Shown here: positions 45,467 to 63,217 of the stretch, in pieces
Layout: each line of letters opens with the position of its first letter
Numbering within the stretch: position 1 is the first letter of the stretch
DNA from: Tidjanibacter sp.
GTDB taxonomy: Bacteria > Bacteroidota > Bacteroidia > Bacteroidales > Rikenellaceae
Direction of reading: 5' to 3'
Assembly (NCBI GenBank): GCA_017466345.1
Contig: JAFTUI010000023.1
Location: 62,001 to 126,000 of the forward strand
Length of the DNA stretch: 64,000 bases
Notes under the pieces: generated by a model
Told to the model about the DNA's origin: nothing
The model's database searches: none
What the model saw: only the letters and a program-made list of their open reading frames with translations
Program-made: the position numbers and the translations under genes

Positions 45467-45497
45467 CGTTGTTGTGAATATAGAATCATTAAATAAA

Positions 45498-45566
45498 AAG
45501 TCCCGACAACACTTTCTTATGCTGTCGGGACAAAGGTACGGGGCGCTTTTGACAATTACTGTCAAT
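45498..45566 (-). promoter_or_regulatory. Duplicated promoter-operator element, copy 1
   Basis: 69-bp element 94 percent identical to 63218-63286 (65 of 69). Read on the minus strand: palindrome TTGACA-GTAAT-TGTCAA (45549-45565), 10 nt, TACCTTTG -7 box (45531-45538), then GTCCCGACA and TGTCGGGAC as a perfect 9-bp inverted repeat (45500-45530 region). Both copies keep TAnnTTTG although the nn bases differ. Drives the operon from 45466 to 40873. Confidence 0.75.
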
Positions 45567-45657
45567 TGCTATTTTTGATAGATTTTTAACGCATAAGTTT
45601 TAGTGTTTTACATCCATCCTCATGGCCCACTTTATGGATTCGCCGACAAGGGCGACA

Positions 45658-46440: not shown

Positions 46441-46465
46441 ATTGCCTTTAATTTGGGTGTGGCTG

Positions 46466-47593
46466 TTACTCGTCATCTTCGGCATCCAACTCGGCCATTA
46501 AGGCTTGGACCTGGGGCGACTCAATTAAGCAAGACACTTCATCCAACATCCTACTATTGTGCTGGGGGCGGCTGAGTTCTTTTATCATTCGACCATTGCG
46601 TAGGCGAGTAGTCATATTGTTATCTATTGACTCCAACGGGAAGGTGTGTTTTCTCAGGGTGTCCCTAAACCAAGGTGTGCAAAAGACTGAAATGATTGGT
46701 TCGTGCTGAATGGATGAGCCACGAGGTCCCCATATTCTCTCTTGTATACTCAAAGACATATTTGTCACTCTGGCCCATATAATTATGTGGTCGGCCAAGG
46801 CTGGAACCAGCGTTCTTGCGATGTTCTCCTGGCGTGAAATGCGACTATAAATCTCACCCACCAGCCACTTGGCAAACTCAATCCACCTCGCCCTATATGA
46901 GTCCACATCGGAATAGGAGATCTCATCATCGAGTTTGCACCGAATGTCATAATATCTCTTGTAGGCCACATCGTTGAGGTGCATAAACTTCCTCGCAAAA
47001 TCCTCCTGGTCGGGTACTGAATTGAGTAACGCAGGAACACCCTTGGCATCGGTAATTGTGCCGAATATTACATCCTGAAAATAGGAGGAATCTCTTGTCT
47101 TCATCAACTCACTTTCATCTTGTAACTTACGATGCAAATCGCGAAGGACCAACGAGTAGATGGCTAATGTCGTGGCGTTTTTGCGCCCACCATAGAACTT
47201 GGTAATAACCTTCTCGTATAAGGGATTAGGTATGATATTGCCGAGGTAGAGTAGCGAAATGGCCAGATTAACCCTCTGTGTTGGAGGGATAATCTGGTCG
47301 AATACCTTGCGGTCGTGTTTGAGTAGTGCAGTGAGCAACTCCTCGGAACGCTTGGCATTACGCTCATTGGTGAGAAATTCCTTCGCTTCCCAGATGTTGC
47401 TCATACCATAGATGCGCTCCTCGCAATCGTAGGGCATAGGGAAGTAGAGCGATATGTCGCTGGCTATATAACGGAATCTAGTTGGGTCCCACGGATGGCA
47501 GATATCTCCACTCGTGAACACATATAGAATTTCTTTATAGTCGTGGTTATCTTGGAAATAATGATAACTCCTTAATTTGTTGCTCCTGCGCAT
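46466..47593 (-). CDS. Unknown 375-residue protein
   Basis: Soluble, helix-rich and charged. No motif recognised; the N-terminal part (YVFTSGDICHPWDPTRFRYI) could be a small beta domain, the middle (ISLLYLGNIIPNPLYEKVIT) and the end (EVSCLIESPQVQALMAELDA) are helical. Ends in an acidic tail. Fifth of six genes in the operon. Confidence 0.65.
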   Translation of the reverse strand: MRRSNKLRSYHYFQDNHDYKEILYVFTSGDICHPWDPTRFRYIASDISLYFPMPYDCEERIYGMSNIWEAKEFLTNERNAKRSEELLTALLKHDRKVFDQIIPPTQRVNLAISLLYLGNIIPNPLYEKVITKFYGGRKNATTLAIYSLVLRDLHRKLQDESELMKTRDSSYFQDVIFGTITDAKGVPALLNSVPDQEDFARKFMHLNDVAYKRYYDIRCKLDDEISYSDVDSYRARWIEFAKWLVGEIYSRISRQENIARTLVPALADHIIIWARVTNMSLSIQERIWGPRGSSIQHEPIISVFCTPWFRDTLRKHTFPLESIDNNMTTRLRNGRMIKELSRPQHNSRMLDEVSCLIESPQVQALMAELDAEDDE

Positions 47594-47644
47594 AAGTTGT
47601 TTTTTAGTATTTAGTTCTTATGAAGAGGTCAGTGGAAATCTATT

Positions 47645-48328
47645 CTAAAAAGGAACATCCTCAATTATTCCCCTATGATATCGGAAGTTCTCATCTGCAT
47701 AATTCACATATTCATATACTGCTATCGCTTCTTCGCAAACATCAACTGGGCGAAGGTAATCTCCATTGTCGAGCAGATAATAGACATAGCCGTTATCATC
47801 CTGGGCACTCACGGTCTTGTCCTGTAAGAATGCTGTGTGTTTTGACACTTCCAAAAGTGAGGTTTTCTTGTTCCGCACACTCTCTTTACCTTGGGGGCTC
47901 TGCCATATATCCGCACCCGATTCATCGGGCAGATACTTGTCAACACAATGATAGGCAAGAGGAATGACTCCCATCCATCCATTAGAATGTGCAAACTCTT
48001 TTTCGAAGTATTTCCACAAGGGCTCCCCTTCGTTGAGCCAATAGATCTCTGTGATTAGATGGTTATCTCCCCTGCAAGAGAAAAGGTGCAAGCCCGTTCG
48101 TTGAGCAAGTTCTTTGTTATCCCAAGTTTCTACCCAATATTGTTTGCAGGTTTCTATCTTCTTATAGTTCAGAGTTATGTATATACCCCATTCGTTGCAA
48201 TAACACCATATGCAATCTGAATGAATTTCAGACCATTTTATGACACCAATATGAATTATATATCGTCCATATTTAATCTCATACACCCCTTGGCGGTCTA
48301 TCATCCTATCAACTTCTTCTTTGGTCAT
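47645..48328 (-). CDS. Unknown 227-residue protein
   Basis: Soluble, Trp/Tyr-rich, likely beta-rich (YIIHIGVIKWSEIHSDCIWC, WGIYITLNYKKIETCKQYWV). The C-terminus (NGYVYYLLDNGDYLRPVDV) resembles a repeat unit of unknown type. No catalytic motif seen. Fourth gene of the operon. Confidence 0.6.
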   Translation of the reverse strand: MTKEEVDRMIDRQGVYEIKYGRYIIHIGVIKWSEIHSDCIWCYCNEWGIYITLNYKKIETCKQYWVETWDNKELAQRTGLHLFSCRGDNHLITEIYWLNEGEPLWKYFEKEFAHSNGWMGVIPLAYHCVDKYLPDESGADIWQSPQGKESVRNKKTSLLEVSKHTAFLQDKTVSAQDDNGYVYYLLDNGDYLRPVDVCEEAIAVYEYVNYADENFRYHRGIIEDVPF

Positions 48329-48439
48329 AATTTGGGCTGATTAAAATTGGTTGTTTCCCTCAAAGTTAGTAAATGTTAATCCCTCCACACAAGCATTTAC
48401 CGATAAATAGTTATCAACAGCCGCCAGGGATTATTGAGT

Positions 48440-49759
48440 CTAATTTGGTTGTGATGGATTGTTGGAGCGAATGGTAGATTGTGCTTCAATGCTCTTGTTT
48501 TGGCTTAACACCCAAGTGATGAACGATTCAAGGTCAGAACTTTTTGCCTCGCCGTAATTAAGGTGTTGCTCGCCATTTACACCACAGTAGAACCACAAGC
48601 CATTATCCGACATCTCCAAAGTATAGTATTGGCACTCCAAGGTACGGGTATTAACTAACACTGCGCCATACTTGGCTTCGGGGGCGATTTGAGGCTCTGG
48701 GAATTGATAGACTACTTGTTTGATTTCGCCATAGTCGCTCACGCTCAATACTCGGAATTTTGCCAATTCCGCCTCATCCACATATCGCTCGCGGCTACGA
48801 AGAGTATCCCTAATCCACTCCTCGTTCCACAAATCTTCAATTGAGAGCTTACCGCTTGTCAAGTGGGTTAATACGGAAGGAATCAGCCTATACGCCAGAG
48901 AGTATATGTAGTTGCGCCCAAGCGTAGGGTCGTTTTCCTGCTCATAGTTACTCATCACATTGTCGTGAGAATTGCTCAACCAGTGTGCAAAGTGCTCGAA
49001 GTATCGCTCCAACTCATCCATATATAGCATATGAGCCTCAATGGCATATACAATGCTATCATCAATAACAAACGCCTTGATTAGGTTGGCCGTTCTCGTA
49101 AGCTCATCCGTATATCTTCTAAATGTACCGAGATCTATTTTGTCATCATCAGATACCTTAAATCGTACATGCATCGTAAGAAAACCATTGTTGTAAGCGA
49201 CAACCATATTGAGATCTCCATACTTAAATACAATGCCGTCGTTGTATTGCTGTGGAGCATAGCCCATATTTGTTAGTGACTGAATAATTCGATCCTTCGA
49301 AATGAATTGTTCCGAGTAGTCCCTCAATTTGACCATCCGCTTGATGACCTCCAACTCATACTTGCGACTCTTTTTGTGAGAAACAACAAACACAGATATA
49401 CATATAGCAAGTATAACGAAAATGGAGATAATAAGCCATTCGAGCCTAGCCTCCAAGCCAAGCCAAATTAGCAGCGCAATGGTAGCAATGGTAGCACCAA
49501 TTTCCAGATACAGCGATCCCTTGTTTTTGATGCTCAAAATCACATCATTCAGATCATTAATAGTGTGTTTTAGTTGCTCGTCACTCAATTCAAACCCTGG
49601 GCAGGGAATGTTATCTCCCAAATTTTTATCATCATGGTCGCACACGATTTCATCGCCCTCGTGTTTGTGAAATCGGCAGTTTTTACAGAGTTTGTTGTGC
49701 GAAACATCTGCGATAAGTTCTGGGGTAATAGGTCCGTTTTTGTGTTTATTCGTATTCAT
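48440..49759 (-). CDS. Unknown membrane protein with N-terminal Cys cluster and YbjN/chaperone-like C-terminal domain
   Basis: 439 residues from MNTNKHKNGPITPEL (the 49801 ATG would overlap the upstream gene). Residues 25-55 hold CKNCRFHKHEGDEIVCDH and a further Cys, a probable zinc site. Two membrane segments near 85-125. Then FISKDRIIQSLTNMGY with DGIVFKYGDLNMVVAYN suggests a YbjN or CesT-like chaperone fold. The rest is not recognised. Confidence 0.6.
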   Translation of the reverse strand: MNTNKHKNGPITPELIADVSHNKLCKNCRFHKHEGDEIVCDHDDKNLGDNIPCPGFELSDEQLKHTINDLNDVILSIKNKGSLYLEIGATIATIALLIWLGLEARLEWLIISIFVILAICISVFVVSHKKSRKYELEVIKRMVKLRDYSEQFISKDRIIQSLTNMGYAPQQYNDGIVFKYGDLNMVVAYNNGFLTMHVRFKVSDDDKIDLGTFRRYTDELTRTANLIKAFVIDDSIVYAIEAHMLYMDELERYFEHFAHWLSNSHDNVMSNYEQENDPTLGRNYIYSLAYRLIPSVLTHLTSGKLSIEDLWNEEWIRDTLRSRERYVDEAELAKFRVLSVSDYGEIKQVVYQFPEPQIAPEAKYGAVLVNTRTLECQYYTLEMSDNGLWFYCGVNGEQHLNYGEAKSSDLESFITWVLSQNKSIEAQSTIRSNNPSQPN

Positions 49760-49769
49760 AAGTAATCGT

Positions 49770-50696
49770 TTAATTGGCGTTTTCGTTTTGTTGTTTTGCA
49801 ACTATATTGAACTCTTCGGTTAACATCTTCATCATATCGACTTTGATGGCAGTTGCTTTAATCATAAACTCCTCAAACTCGGCATTTGTAAGTATTTTAT
49901 CTTTTGATCCACCCGAATAAATCACATCGTATATCGGTTGGGATATTTCATCAAAATACAATGCGTATTCGATGACAGTCTCTCTTGTTGCCTCCAATTG
50001 TTCAGCCGAAGTTGCAAAGTCGCAAATGAGTCCACAATATGTCTTATAAAAGCACACTGTTTCCAAGACAAAGTAGATCTTCTGCAACTCCTCTTGGGTG
50101 AAACGATCCACCATTTTCGCGAGCTCTATCGTTCTGATTGTTTTCAACGGGAATCCGTAATCAATATCTCGGAATTCGTCATTTCTTTCTACCTTGTTTG
50201 CTATTGTGCGGAAAAGTTGGGTATAGTAATATGAATAGCCAGACATCTCCGCCAGTGCCACAATATCCTCGTAGTTGCTCTTGGCGACATTGTTAGCCAA
50301 AGAGTCGCAGATGGGCACAGAATTAAGCGCATATCCTGCCTCTTCGGGACAAACATATAGTCCTAAAATGCTCACAAAATAGTTCATTCCGTAAGCAAAC
50401 AAATTGTTCATCTGGAAGATGGTGGTCATCTGCTGTAAGAATGGACGGTCCATAGTAGTAACAACTTTATGGAGGCTATCCACCATTGAAGAAGCCCACA
50501 CGGTTTCGGTATCTCCGCCTATGGGTATAGATGCCTCCGACAGCTCTCTTATAGCACCACTTAAATCATTGATCATAGTTTTTTGCGTCTGCTCGGTCAA
50601 GAGAGGGAATGTATTCTTTTTCTCGACTTTGGGTCTGCAATTTGAGCATAAAAATATGCCGATAATAACGCTAATTAATAGTAAGGTATTTTTCAT
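49770..50696 (-). CDS. Unknown lipoprotein
   Basis: 308 residues. Signal MKNTLLLISVIIGIFLCSNC with a lipobox-like end (Cys20; Asn at -1 is unusual), so probably a membrane-anchored lipoprotein. The rest is helical (SLHKVVTTMDRPFLQQMTTI, FRTIANKVERNDEFRDIDYG). No family recognised. Second gene of the operon. Confidence 0.65.
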   Translation of the reverse strand: MKNTLLLISVIIGIFLCSNCRPKVEKKNTFPLLTEQTQKTMINDLSGAIRELSEASIPIGGDTETVWASSMVDSLHKVVTTMDRPFLQQMTTIFQMNNLFAYGMNYFVSILGLYVCPEEAGYALNSVPICDSLANNVAKSNYEDIVALAEMSGYSYYYTQLFRTIANKVERNDEFRDIDYGFPLKTIRTIELAKMVDRFTQEELQKIYFVLETVCFYKTYCGLICDFATSAEQLEATRETVIEYALYFDEISQPIYDVIYSGGSKDKILTNAEFEEFMIKATAIKVDMMKMLTEEFNIVAKQQNENAN

Positions 50697-50716
50697 ATTT
50701 CAACTTTAATTATAGG

Positions 50717-51187
50717 TTACCACAGCTTTATTTCTGGGTGGTTGGTAACGAGGTTGAGATAGTCCTCTTTGGTGAAGCCCGATTGTTCTTCAAGCATTCG
50801 GAAGGTCCTAACTTCATATCCCAAGACCTCCTCCTTCTCCTCATCTACGAAGCCGTACACCCAAACTTGAAATATCTTTTCGGGAGCATCCAAGAAAGAG
50901 ATGCTTACCCATAGTCCACCTCCAAGAAATGGTTGAGCTTGAAGTACAATAAACATACTATCCAACGCATCTTTGTTCATAGATAACACACCATCCCTCA
51001 CCGTTCCTTGTTGGAATGATGTGATATACTTTCGTATCTCACGATAGTAGTCGTTGTCTTGCCAATCGTCCTCGGTCCAATTTTCGAAGCGGATGTCGTT
51101 GAGGCTACGATGGGACTGTTCTTGTGCCGAACAGAGGGCGGGCACTGCAATCAGCGCCACCGCCAAAAGAGTAAGTAGTTTTTTCAT
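50717..51187 (-). CDS. Unknown secreted protein
   Basis: 156 residues with a cleavable signal peptide (MKKLLTLLAVALIAVPALCS, cleavage near SAQ). Mature part acidic (RFENWTEDDWQDNDYYREI). No family recognised. First gene of a six-gene operon (50717-51187 down to 45658), with an operator-bearing promoter 36 nt upstream of the start. Confidence 0.7.
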   Translation of the reverse strand: MKKLLTLLAVALIAVPALCSAQEQSHRSLNDIRFENWTEDDWQDNDYYREIRKYITSFQQGTVRDGVLSMNKDALDSMFIVLQAQPFLGGGLWVSISFLDAPEKIFQVWVYGFVDEEKEEVLGYEVRTFRMLEEQSGFTKEDYLNLVTNHPEIKLW

Positions 51188-51222: not shown

Positions 51223-51257
51223 CAAATTTAAGAATACCCTGCGCACTCTTTGTTCGT
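51223..51257 (-). promoter_or_regulatory. Operator-promoter A (six-gene operon)
   Basis: Minus strand: palindromic ACGAACAAAGAGTGCGC (51241-51257), 10 nt, TAAATTTG -7 box (51223-51230). Start of transcription near 51216, about 29 nt before the ATG. No -33 TTTG: the palindrome replaces it. Confidence 0.75.
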
Positions 51258-51358
51258 AACCTGACTCACTATAATTAAGATGAGGATTAACGCGAATGTA
51301 GCCCATAAAGGCCAGTTTCTTAAGGGTTGAAAATATCAAGCCCTTAATAAAGATTTGC

Positions 51359-51393
51359 GCGAACATAGCGTTCGTGCCGCATTTTTAAATTTG
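51359..51393 (+). promoter_or_regulatory. Operator-promoter B (HAD-PRTase-DprA operon)
   Basis: Plus strand: GCGAACATAGCGTTCGT (51359-51375), 10 nt, TAAATTTG (51386-51393). Start of transcription near 51400, so the HAD mRNA leader is only about 7-13 nt. Divergent from operator A, 100 nt away. Confidence 0.78.
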
Positions 51394-51406
51394 TCGCCGA
51401 AAACAG

Positions 51407-52117
51407 ATGATTATGGCGACCACTATTACATATCCACAAGCATCATTAGTCGAAGTTGCACTCTCGAATTTGTGCAGAGAGTTATTCGATTTCAATGCTG
51501 CACTAGTAACCTCTTCTTTAAAAGAAGATGTGTGCACGCGTGATATGCATAGGTTGAACTCACTTGATTGGCAAGTGAGTGCAGGTGATGTGTTGCTCTT
51601 TGATATGGACGGCACCCTCATTGATACGGATGCCTGCAATACCAAAGCATACAAAGCAGCTATTGAAGTGGTGCTGGGTGGTGATTATGCGGAATTGCTG
51701 GATATTTCCCGTATAGAACGAAGGGTACTGCGTGAAAGGCTTTCCTGGATTTCCGAGAAGCAACTCGCAGATATCATCGCCCTTAAAGAGAAATTTTACA
51801 CGCAGTTCATTGACGAGATTAGCATTATCTCCTCAACAATGGAAATTCTCAACCGTTTTGTGGAAACTCACAAAGTGGTTCTAGTGACCAATGCTCGTCG
51901 TGGCAGGACTATGCAGACCCTCCGCCATCTGTATCTGGAAAATACATTTGATGCGATCGTAACAAAGGATGACTGCAATGGTACAGACAAGTTTACGACA
52001 GCTATTAATATTCTCGGACTCAACCCTAATAAAGTATGGGTGTTTGAGAACGAAGAGGTGCAGGCTATGGCAGCAGTAGCAGCAGGTATAAATATTAATC
52101 ACATAATTCTTAGGTAG
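51407..52117 (+). CDS. HAD-superfamily hydrolase
   Basis: 236 residues. LLFDMDGTLIDTD (motif I, Asp66/Asp68), VVLVTNARRGR (motif II, Thr) and VTKDDCNGTDK (Lys) followed by VWVFENEEVQ in place of motif IV. A 60-residue N-terminal extension precedes the HAD core. Likely a phosphatase on a small phosphorylated molecule. First gene of a three-gene operon; next gene starts 1 nt after its stop. A second ATG six bases in is an alternative start. Confidence 0.82.
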   Translation: MIMATTITYPQASLVEVALSNLCRELFDFNAALVTSSLKEDVCTRDMHRLNSLDWQVSAGDVLLFDMDGTLIDTDACNTKAYKAAIEVVLGGDYAELLDISRIERRVLRERLSWISEKQLADIIALKEKFYTQFIDEISIISSTMEILNRFVETHKVVLVTNARRGRTMQTLRHLYLENTFDAIVTKDDCNGTDKFTTAINILGLNPNKVWVFENEEVQAMAAVAAGININHIILR

Positions 52118-52118
52118 T

Positions 52119-52742
52119 ATGAAGAAATTTACAATCGAGGCAAACAACTTTCTTTCGCAGAACATTCAGGGCTATTTCCGTCAATACTACATAGGTGGAG
52201 AGAATAGGCATTTGAACCCCAAAAACATCGAGCACTTAATTTGCTCGTTCAAAAACGACATCACCGTAACACCTAACGAGGTAATGGAGTGTTGCATAGA
52301 TAGATTGAGCGACATCCTTAGAGAGGATTTGTGCGCGATTGTAGAGAATGAGAATCTTTCTTGTCCTACCATCTGCGTCATTCCTAGGGCTAAAGTCAGC
52401 TATCGTCCAGATCAAATGCTGTTTAAGGCTACCATTAAGAATGTAGTCCAGTCTATGAGCTGTGTTGTGGATGGCACGGATTATATCATCCGCACTGCCG
52501 ATACAAAAACTACCCATAGAGCACGCAGGGGATATGGTGGTGATGGTAAACTGCCATATCCAGGAATCACCATAGACACTTGTGCCATCTCCAATGATGT
52601 TAGAGGTAAGGATATTATTCTTATCGACGACCTATATACCAAGACCGTCAATATCGACGAGGACGCCATTGAAGCTCTCTTACGCAAAGGAGCCAATTCG
52701 GTAACTTTTTACTCGATTGGTCGCACTGTTTCTCGCTACTAA
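52119..52742 (+). CDS. Phosphoribosyltransferase-like protein
   Basis: 207 residues. DIILIDDLYTKTVNIDEDA (from about residue 165) matches the PRPP-binding motif hhhhDDhxTxGxT in general form, and VIPRAKVSYRPDQM with the basic RTADTKTTHRARRG segment fits a ComF/PRTase fold. Probably acts with the HAD protein on a nucleotide-like compound. The cognate base is unknown. Confidence 0.68.
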   Translation: MKKFTIEANNFLSQNIQGYFRQYYIGGENRHLNPKNIEHLICSFKNDITVTPNEVMECCIDRLSDILREDLCAIVENENLSCPTICVIPRAKVSYRPDQMLFKATIKNVVQSMSCVVDGTDYIIRTADTKTTHRARRGYGGDGKLPYPGITIDTCAISNDVRGKDIILIDDLYTKTVNIDEDAIEALLRKGANSVTFYSIGRTVSRY

Positions 52743-52770
52743 TTATTAATTTTGTAACAGATATAGGACT

Positions 52771-53742
52771 ATGAATTACACGCAGAACGCACTAAATGTA
52801 CTAGCAGTACGAACCTTTAAGGGTATTGGCAGGGCTTGGTTTGTTAAGAATTGGCAACCCAACCTCACCGATATGGATATAGTTGCACTGATCAATCAGG
52901 GCAACAAAGTCGATGTGCCAGCAACGATAGGCGATTTGGAGCAAAAACGCACAGCAATAAAGCGTCTGCTCGAACAATCGCAAGGATGCATGGATGGCGT
53001 AGTAGCATTGGGCGATAAGGATTTTCCCAAACACAGAGGCGATGTTAAGAATAGTGAGCAGCCTATTTTTCTTTTCTACAAGGGAGATTTGTCGCTACTC
53101 TCATTAACCAACCGCAATGTGGCTGTAATAGGACTATTAAATCCCACTCCTGAAATAGAGGGGCGAGAACGCCAAGTTGTGTCTGAATTGGTAAAACAAG
53201 GTGCTACTATTGTAAGTGGCTTGGCGTTGGGATGTGATTCTATTGCACACCGTACAACTTTGGAGTGTAATGGTAAGACTGTGGCGATATTGCCGAGTCC
53301 ACTGAGTTCTATTATGCCCGCAACTAATAGACCATTGGCGCAACAGATATTAGACCAGGGTGGTTTGTTAGTTTCGGAATATCTCACAGATGCAAAGAGC
53401 AAGATGGCGCTCAGTAGTCGCTACCAGGAGCGAGATAGATTGCAGGCTTTGTTTAGTGATGCCATTGTGCTTTCAGCAAGTTATGCCAAGAATAACTTGG
53501 GACTTGATAGTGGCTCTCGTTTGGCAATGAGCTACGCTGCGGATTATGGTATCCCTCGTGCTGTGATTTATGATGATTCGGAAGCAACCAACCCAATGTT
53601 CGACCTAAATAGGCAGTATATGAGAGAGGATGGCAGAGTGGTGGTTATAAGGGAAACAACATCGGCTTCTGACCTTGACCGATTGCTGCGCCTAAAACCT
53701 CGCACGGCTCAACCCAGATATTCACAGAATACCATTTTCTAA
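52771..53742 (+). CDS. DprA/Smf-like SLOG-fold protein
   Basis: 323 residues. NVAVIGLLNPTPEI then ATIVSGLALGCDSIAHRTTL (SGLAxGxDxxAH, 149-160), KTVAILPSPL and QGGLLVSEY, then QERDRLQALFSDAIVL in place of the FPxRNR segment. This is the DprA Rossmann/SLOG fold but divergent. With no competence genes near, it may sense or bind a nucleotide signal rather than load RecA. Third gene of the HAD-PRTase-DprA operon. Confidence 0.78.
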   Translation: MNYTQNALNVLAVRTFKGIGRAWFVKNWQPNLTDMDIVALINQGNKVDVPATIGDLEQKRTAIKRLLEQSQGCMDGVVALGDKDFPKHRGDVKNSEQPIFLFYKGDLSLLSLTNRNVAVIGLLNPTPEIEGRERQVVSELVKQGATIVSGLALGCDSIAHRTTLECNGKTVAILPSPLSSIMPATNRPLAQQILDQGGLLVSEYLTDAKSKMALSSRYQERDRLQALFSDAIVLSASYAKNNLGLDSGSRLAMSYAADYGIPRAVIYDDSEATNPMFDLNRQYMREDGRVVVIRETTSASDLDRLLRLKPRTAQPRYSQNTIF

Positions 53743-53781
53743 CCATAAAGGAGAGAGCTGCTGGCTCTCTCCTTTATGGTT
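53741..53781. terminator. Bidirectional hairpin between convergent operons
   Basis: Perfect 18-bp stem (53741-53758 and 53764-53781, arm starts AACCATAAAGGAGAGAGC) with a 5-nt loop. Lies between the DprA stop and the end of the retron operon. T tracts are weak (CCTCTTTATT on the plus strand). Confidence 0.8.
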
Positions 53782-53786
53782 CCTCT

Positions 53787-54422
53787 TTATTCCTTAATCA
53801 AATCGTTTAATAGGTTCTTCAATTGCACCAACTCTTGCTTGGTGGCAGTCCTTTGTATGATTTTATACACCTTAATAATATTCATAAGTATTTGATCATC
53901 TTCTGCACCTGCTGTTTGGGGGTTCCAATCCATCCCAGTGATTTCAGTAAACAAATTTTCTCCTTCTACAAACCATTGGTCGTATTGTTCCGACATTCGT
54001 TCAAAGCGGTCATCTTCTTGTATGGCCATATCCACACGATAGACATCTGTGGTTTTATATGGAACCAACTCATCTTTCTTATTCTTGTAAGCTCCATTTT
54101 TGGGAATGTATGTTAATCTTGCTTCAACATAGATTGGGTTTTCCAATTCAAGAGAACGAACATATCCTAATTGTGGTTTTAGAGGACAGTCTACTTGACT
54201 CCCCGATAATTTCATAAGGTTCTCGATGGTTAATAAGTTCGTACAAAATTGCTGACCATAAGACTTCTTCATCAAGATGTTGTCAAACTTCTGCCCTGTT
54301 ATCAGATCAACGGCATATATGCGCAACAACTCATCAAAGACGCCCTCTCTTTCGCCTCGAATTACCGTGCCTTTTATATGGGTAATTTTAAGATGATATT
54401 GTTTGCTTTGTGGCACAACCAT
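53787..54422 (-). CDS. Unknown retron-associated protein
   Basis: 211 residues, beta-rich first half (YHLKITHIKGTVIRGEREGV, YVRSLELENPIYVEARLTYI) and helical end (KIIQRTATKQELVQLKNLLN). No family recognised. 31 nt after the HEPN-like gene, last in the retron operon; it could be a third component or an immunity/regulatory partner. Confidence 0.6.
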   Translation of the reverse strand: MVVPQSKQYHLKITHIKGTVIRGEREGVFDELLRIYAVDLITGQKFDNILMKKSYGQQFCTNLLTIENLMKLSGSQVDCPLKPQLGYVRSLELENPIYVEARLTYIPKNGAYKNKKDELVPYKTTDVYRVDMAIQEDDRFERMSEQYDQWFVEGENLFTEITGMDWNPQTAGAEDDQILMNIIKVYKIIQRTATKQELVQLKNLLNDLIKE

Positions 54423-54453
54423 GTCTGAACTACAATAACTATTGTTTATTATT

Positions 54454-55359
54454 TTACGAATTCGTTGTGTCTGAGTTCTTCAAATTGTCAGAGATGGTAT
54501 TGGCAAGTTTGGTCAAAGCCTCAACTATTTCAGCAAATGGTGTGGTGTGGACAAAATTGGCAAAACTAGCATTTTGGGCAAACTCTTTATACTCATTTAC
54601 AGTCATTCCAATCTCTCTATTGAAACTGTCTTTTAGTGTATCATCGCTAAAGCGTCTATAATCTATATTATACCATTGTCTATTAAACCACAATTTATTG
54701 GCTCTTGCAAAACGATCAACTCGGTTGATTATCTCAAAACTATCAGTATGAGTGTTTTTAATAGTCCTATGACTCTGTATATTTCGTACTTTTCTTACTG
54801 CGTCAAGTATGCTGAAGACATCTATTTTGTATTGTGAGTTAAAGGCATATAGCAATGTGCCATATGCTGCTAAGTCCTTTGCTTTGGGATTATAAAGTAT
54901 CACATTTTCTTTGATAGCATTCGTGTCGCTATTAAACTTAATATCATAATAATAGTTCAACAGTGGTTCTGTTTGCAGTTGCACATATCTGCAAAACTCA
55001 AAGAAGTCTGTTTTATGTCCCCTTAAACCATATCTACAACGAAGCATTTCTCTATAATCTGCCTCTAACTGATTGCGTACATCAGTATCTATCACAAAAG
55101 AGTAGTCAATGGCGGGCTTTGCTGAATCTAACCTATAGTCCAAACCAAGATATTTTTCTATGGCATCAATCTTTGCATTGGACACACCTTCGTGAGTGAC
55201 ATTCTTTTGAGGTTCAACAATAGGCGAGCTCTCTTTTGTTTCGTGTGTTTCTCTTAGCACCATCCTTAAATCAGCAATGAACTCCTCGTTGCCAGGGAGT
55301 TCTTTGACTGCTTTGACGAAAGCCACTACTCTATCTAATTCTTGCTTATTTAGTCCCAT
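54454..55359 (-). CDS. HEPN-like protein next to the retron reverse transcriptase
   Basis: 301 residues from the ATG at 55359 (a TTG two codons earlier is an alternative). AVRKVRNIQSHRTIKN carries RNxxxH (Arg192, Asn193, His197), the HEPN-ribonuclease signature, inside a helical region (FCRYVQLQTEPLLNYYYDI, AAYGTLLYAFN). N-terminal 60 residues are charged linker. 11 nt after the RT stop. Probable effector RNase of the retron; HEPN assignment rests on the motif and helical context only. Confidence 0.55.
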   Translation of the reverse strand: MGLNKQELDRVVAFVKAVKELPGNEEFIADLRMVLRETHETKESSPIVEPQKNVTHEGVSNAKIDAIEKYLGLDYRLDSAKPAIDYSFVIDTDVRNQLEADYREMLRCRYGLRGHKTDFFEFCRYVQLQTEPLLNYYYDIKFNSDTNAIKENVILYNPKAKDLAAYGTLLYAFNSQYKIDVFSILDAVRKVRNIQSHRTIKNTHTDSFEIINRVDRFARANKLWFNRQWYNIDYRRFSDDTLKDSFNREIGMTVNEYKEFAQNASFANFVHTTPFAEIVEALTKLANTISDNLKNSDTTNS

Positions 55360-55370
55360 ACTCAATCATT

Positions 55371-56960
55371 TTATAAGTTATCAGGCTCTGGAATATCTGC
55401 CTCCATAAGAGCAATTAACCTTTCACGATTAGCAATCTCTACACGATCAGAGGCAATATCTTCCATGCTCACAACTTTGTAATTTTTACCATCAACTTTA
55501 TCTTCGTTAAGTACTTGCGAGAAGATGTCGCTCTCAACCAATGCAGAAAGTTCTTCCTGCAACTCAACTGTCTTTCGTTTACCAGCTTTGGTGTGTTGTG
55601 GCGCCACCAATTTTTTGTGGAGCATATAAAAGAGCGAGATGCCGTTGTCGCAAAGTGAAATCTGATATTTGCGCCACAATTCTGCTGCTTCATCTCCCTT
55701 AGCGAACAACTCTTTCACAGGAACTGTTTGGCTGACTGTAATAGGTCGTATATCATCGCCCACTTTGAAAAACAAAGCAGGTGTTGTTTCGGGATTGTAC
55801 TCTATTTGGCTAGAGAGGGTTTCCTCAAACTCTTCTCGATTCATTGTATGGACATAAGCGAGTGGCTTCTTTGCATACTTTATGGGAGCCAATTCTTGTC
55901 CTTGCAATTTGGCAAAACGACTATTTAGAGCCTTGTAGGTCGCATCCTCTGCACCCTTAACCATTTTGAGATACTGTAACTTACCCATCAACACAGCGTC
56001 CAAACTTGGCATACCTCCTTTGTGGCGATGTGTAGGGTTGAGTTTGCGAGCCCTCATATAACTCTCACAAGCGGCCATATGACCAAACTTCTCCCATATG
56101 TGAAGCAGTGTGCGTACCTCACGGGTGTATGTGCGTACAACATTGACCTTATCTGATAAAATAAGTCCTGTTACTTCCTGGCGTTCACCTACTTTTTGGA
56201 GTCGGGTTTTCTTTTCGTTTATGGTAAAATGATTGTCGGCAATAATTCGGTGCAACTCCTTTATGAACTCGCCTTCGTTGGAATAGATATAGTTCATACT
56301 GCTGAATGTGATATCATCAGCATAGCGACTATACTTTGCACCAAACCTTTTGGCAAGACCACCGAGTTGTCGGTCAAGCTTCTCGCAGATGATGTTGGTA
56401 ATGGTAGGAGATGTGGGCGCACCTTGTGGAAGAACATAGCGAGTCTCCTTGCCATCCTCTTCCAAGCGCATAGTGCACAAGCCTGCTATCACATCCGACA
56501 ATTCGCTTGGGAAGTTGAATGGGGGTAGAGTGAGGCGCTTCCATAGCCTTGATTTGTCAATGCTGGGGAAGAAATCTTTTAGGTCGAGATTGTAGATGTA
56601 GTTTTGTCCGAGATGCAGTTTTGCATTATCCACCACAGAACGACCTTGCACAAAGCCCATCGCATATTTCGATGGCTCATAGATTGCCTGCAAGATTGTA
56701 TTGAGGGAAAACAAGATCGATTTCAGCCCTGCTACAGGTGCGGAAATAACCCTCTCGCCACCACTCTTTTTGGGTATGGTGAAGTTTTTATATCGCTGGT
56801 GTGTTGCTCGCTTGGGGTTGCAATGATATGTGATTTGATTGAGGTGGAAAGGGCGAAATTTGTCACCCAGCGCATCTTGCTTCACCTGATTGAGCAATCG
56901 GCGAAGGTCTTTGATATTCTTCATTGCAAGGGCTGTTGTTCTAATTTCGGTTCTCTCCAT
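55371..56960 (-). CDS. Retron-type reverse transcriptase with C-terminal extension
   Basis: 529 residues. RT core: NAKLHLGQ (the NAxxH retron motif, 112-116), YNLDLKDFFPSI (126 on), VLPQGAPTSPTITN (RT4), SRYADDITFS (YADD, 213-216), and VTGLILSDKVNVVR (the VTG motif, 263 on). NAxxH and VTG mark retron RTs and separate them from group II intron and DGR RTs. After about residue 350 an extension of some 180 residues follows with no motif I recognise. Start 22 nt after the a2 end of the ncRNA. Makes msDNA from that RNA. Confidence 0.9.
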   Translation of the reverse strand: MERTEIRTTALAMKNIKDLRRLLNQVKQDALGDKFRPFHLNQITYHCNPKRATHQRYKNFTIPKKSGGERVISAPVAGLKSILFSLNTILQAIYEPSKYAMGFVQGRSVVDNAKLHLGQNYIYNLDLKDFFPSIDKSRLWKRLTLPPFNFPSELSDVIAGLCTMRLEEDGKETRYVLPQGAPTSPTITNIICEKLDRQLGGLAKRFGAKYSRYADDITFSSMNYIYSNEGEFIKELHRIIADNHFTINEKKTRLQKVGERQEVTGLILSDKVNVVRTYTREVRTLLHIWEKFGHMAACESYMRARKLNPTHRHKGGMPSLDAVLMGKLQYLKMVKGAEDATYKALNSRFAKLQGQELAPIKYAKKPLAYVHTMNREEFEETLSSQIEYNPETTPALFFKVGDDIRPITVSQTVPVKELFAKGDEAAELWRKYQISLCDNGISLFYMLHKKLVAPQHTKAGKRKTVELQEELSALVESDIFSQVLNEDKVDGKNYKVVSMEDIASDRVEIANRERLIALMEADIPEPDNL

Positions 56961-56982
56961 ACTCGTTTTAGGCTAAAAAAGA

Positions 56983-57344
56983 GCGCTCTTTGAGTCAGCT
57001 TATTGAAATTTCTTTTCTTTGTCTATGAATAAGTAAACGCAGTTTAATTATTCTCACTTGACGCAAAATACGGAGTATTTTGCTTAATGATATTCAAGTT
57101 CAGACTTGAATATCACCCATATCACTTCGAAGAAGGGATATGTTGTTATTTAATATTAACTTCTTAAGTTAATATGTTCTCAATTTATTGAGAATACTTG
57201 ACTTTTAACAGACAGGAACTGTCGGTCAAAAGTCCAATAACAACAAGACCTTGGTTTACCCATTGAAGTTACCTCCTTTGGGCCAGCTGTACAATACGAC
57301 AGCCTAAATCAAAATGTCATTTCAATAAGCCACTCAAAGAACGC
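56983..57344 (-). ncRNA. Retron msr-msd non-coding RNA
   Basis: The ends are complementary: a1 (57319-57344) and a2 (56983-57009) match over about 25 of 27 positions, with the shared core CTTATTGAAAT and TCTTTGAGT. Between them are at least six stem-loops: 57200-57234, 57177-57194, 57153-57175 (10-bp stem, ATATTAACTT), 57119-57141, 57089-57114 (11-bp stem, GATATTCAAGT) and 57063-57083 (9-bp stem, GCAAAATAC). Position upstream of the RT and a promoter with its -7 box 20 nt before a1 fit a retron. At about 360 nt it is longer than most known msr-msd RNAs; the exact branching G and msr/msd border are not fixed. Confidence 0.82.
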
Positions 57345-57364
57345 TTTAGTTTTGTTTCGTGCTG

Positions 57365-57399
57365 CAAATATAATACCCCATTGCGCACTCTATATTCGC
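57365..57399 (-). promoter_or_regulatory. Operator-promoter C (retron)
   Basis: Minus strand: GCGAATATAGAGTGCGC (57383-57399), 10 nt, TATATTTG (57365-57372). Transcription would start near 57358, 14 nt before a1. Places the retron under the same control as the WYL gene. Confidence 0.78.
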
Positions 57400-57459
57400 A
57401 CTATTGCAGTGTGCTATAATCCTCTACAAATATACAAAAAACTGTATAGATACCACATC

Positions 57460-58515
57460 CTATTCGCGATTTCTTACGATTAGGCGGTTTGAGCAAGGCT
57501 CGTTGCCTGGGAGGTGTTTCCATTGCCCTTCGTTGGTGCAATTTACAACTTTAGATGTGACTCGATTAATAACTCCCATATATTCATCATCGCACGCATC
57601 GTTAATACTTTGAATGCCTGGGTGTAGTATGCTAACATCTGTTTGCTTAGTCGCTTTGCCGTATTTGTTGATTGAGTCGAAGCCGCCACCAACTTTGATT
57701 CTTACATTGTTTGTGAGGATATATCTGTCGTGGAAGGTATTGGAACTTGTGTTTTGCTCTACGAACATATCAAACTCAAAATCCAGATTAGGGCGAATCT
57801 GTTTTATCTTTTCGACTAACTGGCGGTATATGTTCTCATCATTTCTAGTGTTGCTTTTATCTTTTGCTGTAATGATTGTCAGGTAAAACTTATCTTCTCG
57901 TGTTACTCCTGGTATCTGCCTGGGTAGTAGTGCATTCAATATCTCTTCTAGGTTGTTGAGGCTTTTAAGGATGTAATTATCAATAATGACTATCGAATTG
58001 CAGTTCGACAGATTGTGTTGACTTTGCAGTATATCTGCCCACTTGAGATACTTACCCTCCTCAACAGATTTGCCACAATCTCTAAAGAGGTAAGAGTTGG
58101 CATCCGCATCTTCTTCGCTGCTCCAGCAAGTTGGAGATAGCGTCACTATACCAAACTTCGAAGCGTAATTTCTGCAAATACCAGCCGATTTGTCAATTAA
58201 GTATGTGGTTCGTGTGCGTTTGGTTGATTTGTTGACATTCTCCACATACTCAAATCCGTGAGTGTCGGAACATACGCATTCGCCCTGCACATACTTCTTG
58301 GCGATATTTAGTTTTTCGGGTAGAGTCTGAAGTTGTTGTGCAAATTGTTCATCCTTAATATCTATCATAATTTGAGATTTGCGGATAAACTTTCCAACAT
58401 TCAGCCACATTTGCACCGCATTCTCATCGGTGAGTATATTAAACGCAGAGCTTGAGTCCCTATACTTTTTTAGGAACTCAAACTCGCAATAGACTTGCTT
58501 TCTGTAGGTAGCCAT
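57460..58515 (-). CDS. Unknown protein with a PLD-like HDR motif, partner of the AAA ATPase
   Basis: 351 residues. FHDRYILTNNVRIKVGGGF (around 265-285) resembles one half-site of PLD-superfamily phosphodiesterases (HxR/K followed by a glycine-rich strand). Upstream SIVIIDNYILKSLNNLEEIL looks like a Rossmann-type strand-helix. N-terminal half unrecognised. Starts 1 nt after the ATPase stop. Possibly a nuclease effector controlled by the ATPase; function unproven. Confidence 0.5.
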   Translation of the reverse strand: MATYRKQVYCEFEFLKKYRDSSSAFNILTDENAVQMWLNVGKFIRKSQIMIDIKDEQFAQQLQTLPEKLNIAKKYVQGECVCSDTHGFEYVENVNKSTKRTRTTYLIDKSAGICRNYASKFGIVTLSPTCWSSEEDADANSYLFRDCGKSVEEGKYLKWADILQSQHNLSNCNSIVIIDNYILKSLNNLEEILNALLPRQIPGVTREDKFYLTIITAKDKSNTRNDENIYRQLVEKIKQIRPNLDFEFDMFVEQNTSSNTFHDRYILTNNVRIKVGGGFDSINKYGKATKQTDVSILHPGIQSINDACDDEYMGVINRVTSKVVNCTNEGQWKHLPGNEPCSNRLIVRNRE

Positions 58516-58516
58516 A

Positions 58517-60595
58517 CTAACTCATTGCTTTGAGGGTTAATATGTCGGTTACCAGATTGTCGGCCTCGTCGAGGAAGCCAGGCCCGAACGGGGCGAGCAA
58601 AATGCCATCCTCCCTGATTGGGATGTCCTTGACTTGTGGCTCTCCCTGTGGGCGCTGCTCGATGTTGGGGTTGTAGAAGTATTGCAACGACACCTCCTTG
58701 GGAGTGAGTTCCTTGCGAGCAACTAGCACTTGGAGTTTACGCACCATATACTCACTGTGGGTCTCCACAATGAAATGAATGCCATAGTTCTTGTAGGCAT
58801 CTGTAAACATCTCCGCCAACAGCGACTGGAACTTCGGATGGAGGTGATTCTCTGGCTCCTCAACGGCAATGGTTATCCCTTTGGTTGTCCTTTCGTTATT
58901 TTTAAGAATTTCGAGTTCCACATTAATAAGGGTACCTAACAACTTCGTTATTCCCAAACCCTCGTCGGCTAAGAAAACTCCTATATCTTCTGGTGTTTTG
59001 TGGAGTTTGACAATCAAACCCAAACCCTCCGCCGTGCTTGTAATGGAAATGCGATCTCCCAACTCAAACTTCTTTACCCATTTGTTTATGTACTCACCTG
59101 CAACGGGGGTGTGATACATTGTTTCACCTTTAAGTTCGTCGGGCAAATCAACTTTCGCTTCTTCTTTGGGAGCGTATTTTCTCGCAACATCGGCATATTC
59201 AAACAATGTTTGGGTGAAAGCATCTTGTTTATCATCAGCAGTATAAACCCTTTTGGACAGAATAGCAGAGTCTGGCACATATTCTACACCTTTGAACATA
59301 GCTGGTGACAATACCTCAGCCAACATTTCTGAATAAAAATCTCTCAGATATGCAAAAACCCAATGTCCACCATTGGAATCATCATGCCAGGAACCTTCGA
59401 TCCAGGAACCTTTGTAGCTTTTCATATACTCTTGACGCTCTACTCCCATTTCATTGCCAATGAATTTATCAGCAAGATGTAGGGTAAAGAATATACCTCC
59501 AAAACCATCTCCATTGAATATTGGGAACTTTTTAAAATCATCTAATTCGTAGATGCCTATATCATCAAATATGTACTCCGAAGTAACTTCTTGAAGAGTA
59601 ATGTCTTGTAGCCACTTCTTCTCCTCTGCAACAAAATACGAAAGTAGAGAGCAGTGTTCGGATTCCTCGAACCAAGTCAAGATTTGATCGAGAAACTCTA
59701 TATACTCAAAAGCGCATCGGTTTTCTTCGACACCATTTCTTCTGTTTCTAGACTCCGCCTCGGCAATCCAATTATGGAAGGTCTTTCTAACATCACATTT
59801 TGCAATACCATCAAGAGCTTTCCAGATCGGCATAGGAAATAGGGTATCTTGTTGTACTGCGCTATCAAACAAAGGGGCGATGGCCCAAAATGGACTATCC
59901 TTGTGATTTTTCGCAGAGTAGTCAAAATAAGGATCTATTCTCGCTTCATTTAATCTATTAACAAAGCGATCAAATTGCTCGGGAGTAACAATGCTTTTTA
60001 AGAGATCTATCTTGTCAGGCAACTCGTTTTCGTGGCTATACAAAGCATCAAAGGCAATATACTTTATTGTGGCTGCCAGATAGTTGTTCTTAATCGAAAG
60101 TAGGTTATTTACTTTTAATACCAACTTTCCATATTTGTGATTGGCAAAGAGATTCTCTTTCTTATCCCTATTTACCATAGCATCAAGGATAATGGTTCCA
60201 TCAAGTTTCTTAATTAGAATATCGCAAAGCCATCCATTATTTAACACATCATTGGTATCCGCTATAAATGTCAACTCAATATCAACATCCTCGTCGAGAA
60301 GTCCGGAATGTATGGTGTAGGAAAAAGTCATCTTGCTACCCTCTCGAGACTTATTATTACGAGCAAGGTCGAACATACCCAATTTGGCAGTTCCCAAAAA
60401 GTCAAGTTTGCAATCTGCAAACTTCTCATATTCCATCTGACAGAAGAAACTTTTAAGCAACAGCAACGCTTTGGCAAACGAACTCTTACCAGAGCTATTA
60501 CAGCCTGTGAGCAAGGTAATGGGAGCGAGATTAATAGTTCCGCCATTTTCACTATCAAATACTCGGAAATTCTTTATTTTCAGACTTGTTTTCAT
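58517..60595 (-). CDS. AAA/ABC-type ATPase (DUF3696-like, OLD/RecF superfamily)
   Basis: 692 residues from MKTSLKIKNFRVF at 60595; the earlier ATG (60667) lies over the -7 box and is rejected. Walker A TGCNSSGKSSFAKALLL (31-38), a long middle insert, then Walker B TIAVEEPENHLHPKFQSLL and the H-loop FIVETHSEYM, then a DUF3696-like tail. Such ATPases pair with a nuclease in several defence systems. First gene of a two-gene operon under operator D. Confidence 0.85.
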   Translation of the reverse strand: MKTSLKIKNFRVFDSENGGTINLAPITLLTGCNSSGKSSFAKALLLLKSFFCQMEYEKFADCKLDFLGTAKLGMFDLARNNKSREGSKMTFSYTIHSGLLDEDVDIELTFIADTNDVLNNGWLCDILIKKLDGTIILDAMVNRDKKENLFANHKYGKLVLKVNNLLSIKNNYLAATIKYIAFDALYSHENELPDKIDLLKSIVTPEQFDRFVNRLNEARIDPYFDYSAKNHKDSPFWAIAPLFDSAVQQDTLFPMPIWKALDGIAKCDVRKTFHNWIAEAESRNRRNGVEENRCAFEYIEFLDQILTWFEESEHCSLLSYFVAEEKKWLQDITLQEVTSEYIFDDIGIYELDDFKKFPIFNGDGFGGIFFTLHLADKFIGNEMGVERQEYMKSYKGSWIEGSWHDDSNGGHWVFAYLRDFYSEMLAEVLSPAMFKGVEYVPDSAILSKRVYTADDKQDAFTQTLFEYADVARKYAPKEEAKVDLPDELKGETMYHTPVAGEYINKWVKKFELGDRISITSTAEGLGLIVKLHKTPEDIGVFLADEGLGITKLLGTLINVELEILKNNERTTKGITIAVEEPENHLHPKFQSLLAEMFTDAYKNYGIHFIVETHSEYMVRKLQVLVARKELTPKEVSLQYFYNPNIEQRPQGEPQVKDIPIREDGILLAPFGPGFLDEADNLVTDILTLKAMS

Positions 60596-60664
60596 TCGCT
60601 TATAATTGGAGGTTAGTTCTGCAAATATAGTAAATTGAGTTGGGTTTTGCCAGTTTCGATGATG

Positions 60665-60699
60665 CAAAAGTAATGAAGTGGAGCGAACGCTATGTTCGC
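60665..60699 (-). promoter_or_regulatory. Operator-promoter D (ATPase operon)
   Basis: Minus strand: perfect palindrome GCGAACATAGCGTTCGC (60683-60699), 10 nt, TACTTTTG (60665-60672). Overlaps the last base of the WYL gene stop codon. Leader of about 63 nt to the ATG at 60595. Confidence 0.82.
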
Positions 60700-61727
60700 T
60701 ATTGTTTATATCCTCTCGCCAATTTCTCGAATCGCTCTCTCATCTCGTTGTGGAGTGTGGCGGGAGTAAGGACTACAACACCATCCATAAACGAGGCGAG
60801 GAGTTGTTTGAGCTCGGTGTTGATTAGGCAGCGGAGCTCCACGAACTGTCCGTTTTCGAAGCCGTATTGTGCTCGCAGTTGATCTGCTCGACCACCCTTA
60901 ACAATCTTCTGGGATCCGTGGATGGGCTTTGTTTCGATATAGGGCAGCTGACTATCCGACACCCACAAGAGAATCTTCTCCACCTCGGCATCCTTGAAAA
61001 TAGTAACACCTACGATGTCGTCGAATCGCTCCTCTAACTCCTCCGAGGGCTCGATGTACTTCTTGCCAAACAGAAGCTCAAAGCCATCGATGCGGTCGAG
61101 GGCAAAGTTGAGAATATATCCATCCTCGGCCGCCGCAATCAAAAACCAGCGATTGTTATACTGTTTGAGCAGATATGGGTGCACTGTGATTGTTTTGGAC
61201 TTGTCGGGCTCAGCAAAAGTGTGATATGTAAGGGCGATAACCTGCTTATTGGCAATGGCTGTAAAGAGCGAGCCAAGCAGATTGGACCCTGCGAGATAGT
61301 CGGGGTTGGTGCTGAACTGAATAATGCGCCTACCTTCCTGCACACTGAGTCGTTGTTTGAGACCATCGAGCCACTCAAAATTGTCGAGCCCATCGAACTG
61401 ACCGAGCGTATTGAGCACCTCGCCCAGCAGATGTTCCTCGTCCTCGGAGAGTTTCTTGGTGAAGATGGAGAATGCAGGGTCGGCATAGTGGACATACTCC
61501 TTGCCATCGCGTCTCTCTTTGCGCTCCAACTCGACCATAAAGACCTCCTCTTCGAGGGCCTTGATGTCCTTCTGAATACAACGCAGCGATACGGGGTCAA
61601 AGCAATCCATTTGCAACTGCTCGTTCACATAGTCGCAGATCTCACGCGTGGTAAAAAACTTGTGCTTGTGCGATAGGCACTCATCTATGTAGCGATAACG
61701 AATTACCGCATTCTTGTTCATCGGCAT
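60699..61727 (-). CDS. WYL-domain transcriptional regulator
   Basis: 342 residues. N-terminal winged-helix part (RYRYIDECLSHKHKFFTTREI, SLRCIQKDIKALEEE), then the WYL core (VIALTYHTFAEPDKSKTITV, HPYLLKQYNNRWFLIAAAED) and a C-terminal extension. This is the BrxR/CapW type, which control phage-defence operons by binding inverted repeats in promoters. Its own promoter has site E, and five neighbouring promoters share the motif, so it is the prime candidate for the shared regulator. A second ATG (61721) is also possible. Confidence 0.88.
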   Translation of the reverse strand: MPMNKNAVIRYRYIDECLSHKHKFFTTREICDYVNEQLQMDCFDPVSLRCIQKDIKALEEEVFMVELERKERRDGKEYVHYADPAFSIFTKKLSEDEEHLLGEVLNTLGQFDGLDNFEWLDGLKQRLSVQEGRRIIQFSTNPDYLAGSNLLGSLFTAIANKQVIALTYHTFAEPDKSKTITVHPYLLKQYNNRWFLIAAAEDGYILNFALDRIDGFELLFGKKYIEPSEELEERFDDIVGVTIFKDAEVEKILLWVSDSQLPYIETKPIHGSQKIVKGGRADQLRAQYGFENGQFVELRCLINTELKQLLASFMDGVVVLTPATLHNEMRERFEKLARGYKQ

Positions 61728-61750
61728 AGGCTCATCTATTTAATTTTCGG

Positions 61751-61785
61751 CAAAGGTAGGACACTTATGCGAACCCTTTGTTCGC
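61751..61785 (-). promoter_or_regulatory. Operator-promoter E (WYL gene)
   Basis: Minus strand: GCGAACAAAGGGTTCGC (61769-61785), perfect arms, 10 nt, TACCTTTG (61751-61758). Leader about 17 nt. Supports autoregulation. Confidence 0.8.
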
Positions 61786-61841
61786 GAAAGGCGTTTACAA
61801 ATTTATGGATTTATCTTTTGAAACGCAAATAACCCAAATTA

Positions 61842-62231
61842 TTATGCGATGTGTAGCTCTGGATCTTCTGCAAGTTCTATTCGTACACGCATATTAAGGT
61901 TGTCTCGAATCATCATTGCGACAAATTTTGAGTGGGCGATCGGAGTCTCTAACTTCCCATCGTAACAAAGAACTCCCCAGAGCCCATCCTTCTCTACACA
62001 GTTGTATGGCGTGCGACAACTGAGCGGACCTGCATATTTGTCATATTCGGGTTTTACAATCACCTCGCCGAGTTCCCAATTTACAAATCCCACTTTACCA
62101 CCTACTTGAATGGGAGAAATCTCCCACATGGTATCAAACTGACAACCATACTGCATTAGTAGGTTGATTACACTCTGCAAATCATCCTCACTCTCAAACA
62201 TCAATGGCACCTTAACACACTCTTTCGTCAT
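61842..62231 (-). CDS. Small WG-repeat-like protein
   Basis: 129 residues from MTKECVKVPLMFESEDDLQ (62231). IQVGGKVGFVNWELGEVIVK and NCVEKDGLWGVLCYDGK resemble two WG (KWG-type) beta repeats. The in-frame GTG at 62267 lies over the -7 box and is rejected. Own promoter F. Function unknown. Confidence 0.65.
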   Translation of the reverse strand: MTKECVKVPLMFESEDDLQSVINLLMQYGCQFDTMWEISPIQVGGKVGFVNWELGEVIVKPEYDKYAGPLSCRTPYNCVEKDGLWGVLCYDGKLETPIAHSKFVAMMIRDNLNMRVRIELAEDPELHIA

Positions 62232-62255
62232 ACCCCTAAACTTTGTTTCACGGCA

Positions 62256-62289
62256 CAAAAATACCACCTCTTGCGTACGCTATGTTCGC
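62256..62289 (-). promoter_or_regulatory. Operator-promoter F (WG-repeat-like gene)
   Basis: Minus strand: GCGAACATAGCGTACGC (62273-62289), 9 nt, TATTTTTG (62256-62263). Spacing one shorter than the others. Confidence 0.7.
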
Positions 62290-63119: not shown

Positions 63120-63217
63120 ATCCTTTCTTTCTATTTAGTTGTTTTAAGTTGTTATTAGTAAATTCATTAAGGCGCCATTTTCAAACTATATCACGCTAAT
63201 AATTCCCACATTGGAGA

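Follow-up and report, generated by a model that had tools for sequence, protein, structure and literature searches.

Among the described regulators of the WYL family, the Caulobacter crescentus activator DriD consists of a winged helix-turn-helix (wHTH) domain, a helical linker and WYL and WCX domains; in the account cited, it acts at several promoters from a site at one fixed distance from the -10 element, over -35, controls DNA-damage genes but not the gene encoding it (PMC12340889). PafBC, a mycobacterial activator of the WYL-WCX family working by sigma adaptation, is described as a heterodimer that uses a -26 motif and replaces -35 recognition before the -10 element (PMC11804915). BrxR and CapW, the wHTH-WYL-WCX regulators of BREX and CBASS, are reported to be homodimers that bind inverted repeats in defence promoters and repress the neighbouring system or island, from sites that lie across or after -10, or across a predicted -35, and these reports describe no fixed geometry across several promoters (PMC9122601, PMC9122589, PMC9122588); BrxR relatives are reported to adjoin many systems (PMC9122601). 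Co-ordination of several defence systems by one pathway is described for the Gac/Rsm regulon of Pseudomonas, which, according to that description, is post-transcriptional and genome-wide and involves no WYL regulator acting through a common operator (PMC11888443). The subject of the present analysis is a stretch of 64,000 nucleotides from Tidjanibacter sp. (contig JAFTUI010000023.1, positions 62,001 to 126,000; hereafter the window), in which a 342-aa WYL protein very probably governs six transcription units through one palindromic operator. Three of these units look like phage defence modules (a retron, a ShosTA-like operon and an NsnB/NsnC-like pair); in contrast to DriD, the regulator would serve five units other than its own gene and that gene as well.

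The first-pass annotation of the window claimed six 17-bp palindromes, five lying exactly 10 bp and one (62273) 9 bp upstream of a TAnnTTTG -7 box, and all of them are present on the strands and at the positions and spacings claimed (Table 1). A scan of the whole genome (1.82 Mb) recovered exact matches to the motif at these six places only, all within an 11-kb stretch, and four further matches with one mismatch had no TAnnTTTG in the next 40 bp; since the consensus was taken from the same six sites, this count is partly circular, and the non-circular tests in other genomes were relied on instead. A loose pattern (up to three mismatches) occurred 15 times in the window versus 11.6 expected, which is no clear excess and is uninformative alone. 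The comparison of the -33 TTG was significant, yet mostly forced by the operator's own letters, and was given little weight. The AWAG centre was forward in 21 of 31 sites and reverse in none, a bias that was not used because the sites had been picked with an oriented pattern.

Searches for the site with its box, made without regard to any regulator, found three genomes among 200 relatives (spacings 9-10: the window's own genome with six sites, G141 with two and G019 with one) and three among 393 genomes of the order (spacings 8-10: its own, G141 with two and G231 with one), while among viral contigs the 10-bp spacing occurred on one only (G509, two sites) and twelve others had 8 bp. A WYL protein of 47-50% identity is encoded beside the sites in each of G141, G231 and G509; no WYL relative was found in G019 or on the twelve viral contigs with the 8-bp spacing (L129, L131-L139, L141, L142). 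The CGAA-like palindromes of these contigs were set aside as another motif or chance, and they may be the site of another regulator. The site is present in 10 of the 11 loci whose WYL protein has at least 43% identity to that of the window (the window, L048-L052, G141, G231, G509, G410 and G503, of which G509 and G231 entered the set first via the site pattern); G503, where the WYL gene has an in-frame stop, had no site within the 4 kb searched. With distances of 0-30 bp left open in the eleven site-bearing loci (ten with WYL and G019), the match lay at exactly 10 bp from TAnnTTTG in 26/27 cases with up to two mismatches, in 15/16 exact matches and in 30/35 with up to three mismatches. The letters of the 10-bp spacer are near random between sites (identity 0.316 versus 0.277 expected), which means that the length of the spacer is conserved but not its sequence; the mean operator identity of 0.764 is raised by picking sites by pattern. 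Comparison between genomes thus supports the site, its fixed spacing and its link to the WYL gene.

In 75 loci of more distant WYL proteins (33-38% identity), no exact CGAA site was found before a box, and a different palindrome, RTGCA-N7-TGCAY, occurred in 30 loci, with 39 of 48 copies at exactly 10 bp (distances 0-30); none of 23 permuted half-sites tested in these loci lay at 10 bp. When palindromes were sought irrespective of their letters up to 500 bp from 107 WYL genes, 38 stood at 10 bp and no other distance had more than four; additional half-site classes, TTCA, CGCA and CACA, were found. The RCGCA and RCACA classes, with recognition helices of their own, were seen in L188, L191, L193, L025 and L158, L159. 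Residue 50 of the recognition helix is C, T or S in 10/10 CGAA loci, Q in 31/35 TGCA loci and T in 4/4 CGCA loci, and the arginine usually preceding it is missing in the five TTCA and the two CACA loci; residue 50 alone does not set the class, since threonine is found in every class. Eight CGAA-class WYL proteins form one clade with support of 100 in the Shimodaira-Hasegawa-like approximate likelihood ratio test (SH-aLRT; tree of 47 rows, L052, G410 and G503 left out). Comparison therefore supports a change of the recognition helix with the half-site class while the 10-bp geometry stays. A family WYL (E 1e-30 or better) is encoded in 12/12 genomes with a relative of the window's reverse transcriptase (RT; E 1e-70 or better), versus 61 of 393 overall (hypergeometric 7e-11, the 393 genomes not being independent). 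A site was recognised before the RT in seven of these twelve (four CGAA-class, three TGCA-class) and in five none was recognised; its class agrees with that of the genome's WYL in 7/7 (helix viewed in six, G466 assigned by identity only). The first genes behind distant-type sites (n = 33) match N6_Mtase (15), RVT_1 (6), AAA_15 (5), DUF2130 (4), BrxA (1), Fic (1) and HAD (1), in counts that are per family and possibly overlap; they were drawn from 50 sites, leaving out six WYL genes, three sites without an open reading frame (ORF) and eight with unscanned ORFs (L056:20313, L071:20577 with two sites, L085:10390, L102:1252, L103:14388, L114:9569, L155:5007), some of which do not appear defence-like.

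The same site precedes relatives of the window's modules in other combinations elsewhere, namely ShosTA with HAD (L049, G231), the RT (G141, L049, L051, G231, G509, G410), and NsnB (L050, L052). It also precedes a UvrD-like helicase (G141), an AAA ATPase after the WYL gene (L048) and other genes; the site of G019 stands before a leucine-rich-repeat gene followed by an RT 64% identical to that of the window. Flanked by two integrases, together with genes for MobC, a relaxase and a primase, the cassette of G509 is probably mobile; the RT of this copy is split in two ORFs (L161:10475-11973). These comparisons support an exchange between genomes of the WYL gene itself, the retron, ShosTA with HAD, NsnB/NsnC and the helicase.

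The 342-aa protein matches the Pfam families WYL (2.2e-11) and WCX (5.6e-7), and its structure model (predicted local distance difference test, pLDDT, 89) contains a wHTH, three linker helices and the WYL and WCX domains. DriD is its best fold match and PafB gives the best sequence-profile score, BrxR and CapW scoring lower; the ssDNA-binding (single-stranded DNA) arginines of PafB are not conserved in a residue comparison of the two. The arrangement in the window resembles that described for DriD in that the sites stand at one fixed distance from the promoter box, centred over the upstream element, and that of BrxR and CapW in that the predicted sites are inverted repeats in defence promoters.

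Comparative evidence strongly supports the first-pass claim of a single WYL protein in control of all six units, namely the presence of the site beside related WYL genes, the same modules carrying it elsewhere and the class tracking the recognition helix. The best explanation appears to be a dedicated defence regulator, most likely an activator of the DriD/PafB kind, acting at the six promoters (probability about 0.6). We infer that a dimer of the 342-aa protein would bind RCGAA-N7-TTCGY-like sites, with the centre over -33 and 10 bp before the -7 box, at six promoters including that of its own gene. The promoters would be weak on their own because the operator takes the place of the -33 element; when the WYL domain meets its signal, which by family analogy may be a nucleic acid, the dimer would hold RNA polymerase at the promoter, and the retron, ShosTA, NsnBC, the WG-like gene, the seven-ORF operon and the WYL gene itself would be switched on jointly. 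The operator-promoter would act as an adapter, such that modules carrying it join the regulon and the sets differ between genomes.

The rigid spacing, the place over -33 and the apparent kinship to the activators PafB and DriD lean towards an activator standing in for -33 recognition rather than a repressor. A repressor of the BrxR/CapW type, which would sit on the same sites over the -33 of active promoters, repress its own gene and the five other units and be released by a ligand, is nevertheless a serious contender, which we rate below even odds. Several facts weigh against activation: phage-defence WYL regulators identified to date are described as repressors (PMC10693628), as are, in the accounts consulted, defence WYL proteins of known function in general; Acinetobacter BrxR is reported to bind over a predicted -35; the WYL gene carries its own site; and toxic modules would profit from repression. 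The -33 element is reported to be weakly conserved in part of the phylum (PMC7366714), so its absence says little, and it is described as not identifiable in one phylum member, which leaves room for activity of a promoter that lacks it. Beyond the choice between activator and repressor, the picture of one regulon is weakened by the 9-bp spacing of site 6, by the site of G019 without a WYL gene found, by the seven-ORF operon (the weakest unit, with no counterpart in other loci) and by the lack of a recognised site in 70 of 127 WYL loci, many of them short and possibly more than one per genome. Repression would not call for a fixed spacing, yet the length of the spacer is constant to the base although its letters vary. 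Where promoters diverge, each has a site of its own (51241/51359 in the window; 9867, with box AATCTTTG, and 9924 in L048), none being shared except in L114, where a single palindrome (L114:9939) lies exactly 10 bp from each of two divergent TAnnTTTG boxes. The sequence scores of the 342-aa protein are nearer PafB and DriD, and the CapW sites are described as overlapping -10 and the R-BOX of E. fergusonii as lying downstream of it.

That some other regulator binds the sites, either a second WYL (G000:C14 126141-127043) or an alternative sigma factor, the 342-aa protein being a passenger, seems very improbable. The second WYL gene does belong to a neighbouring operon that also contains Zorya-like and type I restriction-modification (RM) genes, but none of the other site-bearing loci searched has a relative of it (best E 0.52; G410 left out), whereas a relative of the 342-aa protein is present in 10 of 11 such loci (absent from G019); the box is an ordinary TAnnTTTG, which argues against an alternative sigma factor, and the site class tracks the recognition helix of the 342-aa family. 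It is still harder to believe that the sites are a promoter cassette copied along with horizontally moved modules under no shared regulator. Modules are exchanged between genomes, and the element that bears one set also encodes integrases, MobC, a relaxase and a primase, as such copying would have it; however, the operator letters stay alike (with the bias noted above) while the spacer drifts at constant length, and copying cannot explain why distant WYL proteins use other half-sites in the same geometry.

Table 1. Operator sites, -7 boxes and genes of the putative regulon (positions in the window).
Feature	Position	Strand	Remark
Operator site 1, ACGAACAAAGAGTGCGC	51241..51257	-	10 bp upstream of the box of the seven-ORF operon
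-7 box of site 1, TAAATTTG	51223..51230	-	
Operator site 2, GCGAACATAGCGTTCGT	51359..51375	+	10 bp upstream of the HAD-ShosTA box
-7 box of site 2, TAAATTTG	51386..51393	+	
Operator site 3, GCGAATATAGAGTGCGC	57383..57399	-	Promoter of the retron
-7 box of site 3, TATATTTG	57365..57372	-	
Operator site 4, GCGAACATAGCGTTCGC	60683..60699	-	Promoter of NsnB-NsnC
-7 box of site 4, TACTTTTG	60665..60672	-	
Operator site 5, GCGAACAAAGGGTTCGC	61769..61785	-	Promoter of the WYL gene itself
-7 box of site 5, TACCTTTG	61751..61758	-	
Operator site 6, GCGAACATAGCGTACGC	62273..62289	-	WG-like gene; spacing 9 bp, sole exception in the window
-7 box of site 6, TATTTTTG	62256..62263	-	
wHTH-WYL-WCX regulator, 342 aa	60699..61727	-	Proposed binder of all six sites
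Seven-ORF operon	45056..51187	-	50717-51187, 49770-50696, 48440-49801, 47645-48328, 46466-47593, 45658-46485, 45056-45565
HAD-family protein	51407..52117	+	
ShosT-like phosphoribosyltransferase	52119..52742	+	ShosT 4.5e-8
ShosA-like DprA family protein	52771..53742	+	ShosA 7.7e-51
Third gene of retron unit, 211 aa	53787..54422	-	Function unassigned
RT partner protein, 303 aa	54454..55365	-	RN-x(2-3)-HR motif; HEPN-like by eye only
Retron-type RT, 529 aa	55371..56960	-	
Predicted retron non-coding RNA	56973..57349	-	Long a1/a2-like pairing of the ends; folded stretch with z -9.6
NsnC-like protein	57460..58515	-	Phospholipase-D-like MIT_C match
NsnB-like AAA_15 ATPase, 692 aa from ATG	58517..60595	-	
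WG-repeat-like gene	61842..62231	-	ATG start by eye; ORF listed from GTG 62267

The gene calls of the first-pass annotation agree with the profile matches: the HAD-phosphoribosyltransferase-DprA unit is ShosTA-like, with both components in one operon and an additional HAD gene in front, and the ATPase pair is NsnB/NsnC-like (4.7e-37 and 3.7e-8). Menshen consists of NsnABC; no NsnA was found among the ten window ORFs scanned, and the pair is labelled NsnB/NsnC-like only. The retron-type RT adjoins a strongly folded upstream RNA; started by the site-3 promoter, this predicted RNA has the long paired ends and the folding score expected of a retron non-coding RNA. A scan against Rfam gave no retron RNA at gathering score, only a tRNA. 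The RT partner protein had no Pfam match in the window copy or in three relatives scanned, and would possibly make this a retron with an RNase effector; its fold model (six-row alignment, mean pLDDT 42.5) was too poor for searching. The RN-x(2-3)-HR motif is conserved between the window protein and L049:15817-16737, L152:4381-5301, L161:11976-12902, L143:17608-18495 and L051:15821-16765. What had been called a six-gene envelope operon has six or seven ORFs, extending to 45056, and the word envelope goes back only to signal or membrane stretches seen by eye; its ORFs are mostly unassigned, one matches DUF1810, and, should the regulon reading prove right, the operon would be a candidate for an unknown defence system. 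The WG-repeat-like gene has no Pfam match of its own; on G509, the gene that follows the WYL gene in the corresponding place matches Pfam WG_beta_rep, and BLAST found no homology between this gene and that of the window. The listed starts of the ATPase ORF (TTG) and of the WG-like ORF (GTG) fall in their own -7 boxes, and ATG 60595 and ATG 62231 (the latter by eye) are likelier. To the right of the window, at G000:C14 124500-144000 (L146), PADLOC labels a run of minus-strand genes as HsdM, ZorA/ZorB-like, a DrmD-like helicase and the second WYL regulator, with HsdS-, HsdR- and 1643-aa ATPase-like ORFs by eye; the last genes of the run extend into the window at 62346-63995.

WYL control of defence is already known from BrxR and CapW. 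Among the papers listed in searches of the open-licence PubMed Central (PMC) literature, we recognised no description of a single WYL protein that controls a number of exchangeable systems from operators at a fixed distance to the promoter, and none of a defence WYL activator; judged from sequence, the system of the window appears to be a real and new, modular variant of the control of defence by WYL proteins, in which different defence modules may plug into a common switch. On a broader proposal our opinion is evenly balanced, namely that WYL activators throughout the Bacteroidota form a family that replaces -33 recognition at defence promoters, its operator being placed exactly 10 bp ahead of the -7 box irrespective of sequence, in at least five half-site classes (CGAA, TGCA, TTCA, CGCA, CACA) accompanied by recognition-helix changes. 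Such a family would provide a plug-in regulon for retrons, type I RM, BREX-like, ShosTA, NsnBC and other modules moving with their own operator. Its members would be the first WYL activators linked to defence, and the signal that switches them would perhaps be ssDNA derived from phages or made by retrons.

Systems that defend against phages cluster in islands, and the way in which several independent ones within an island are jointly switched is hardly known; in the window a single regulator appears to control its own gene and five separate units, the exchangeable modules each bringing the same operator at a fixed distance. The resulting sequence rule (operator, 10 bp, TAnnTTTG) would allow defence genes to be found by their regulation instead of by homology, and it makes directly testable whether WYL proteins may activate, besides repressing, immunity.

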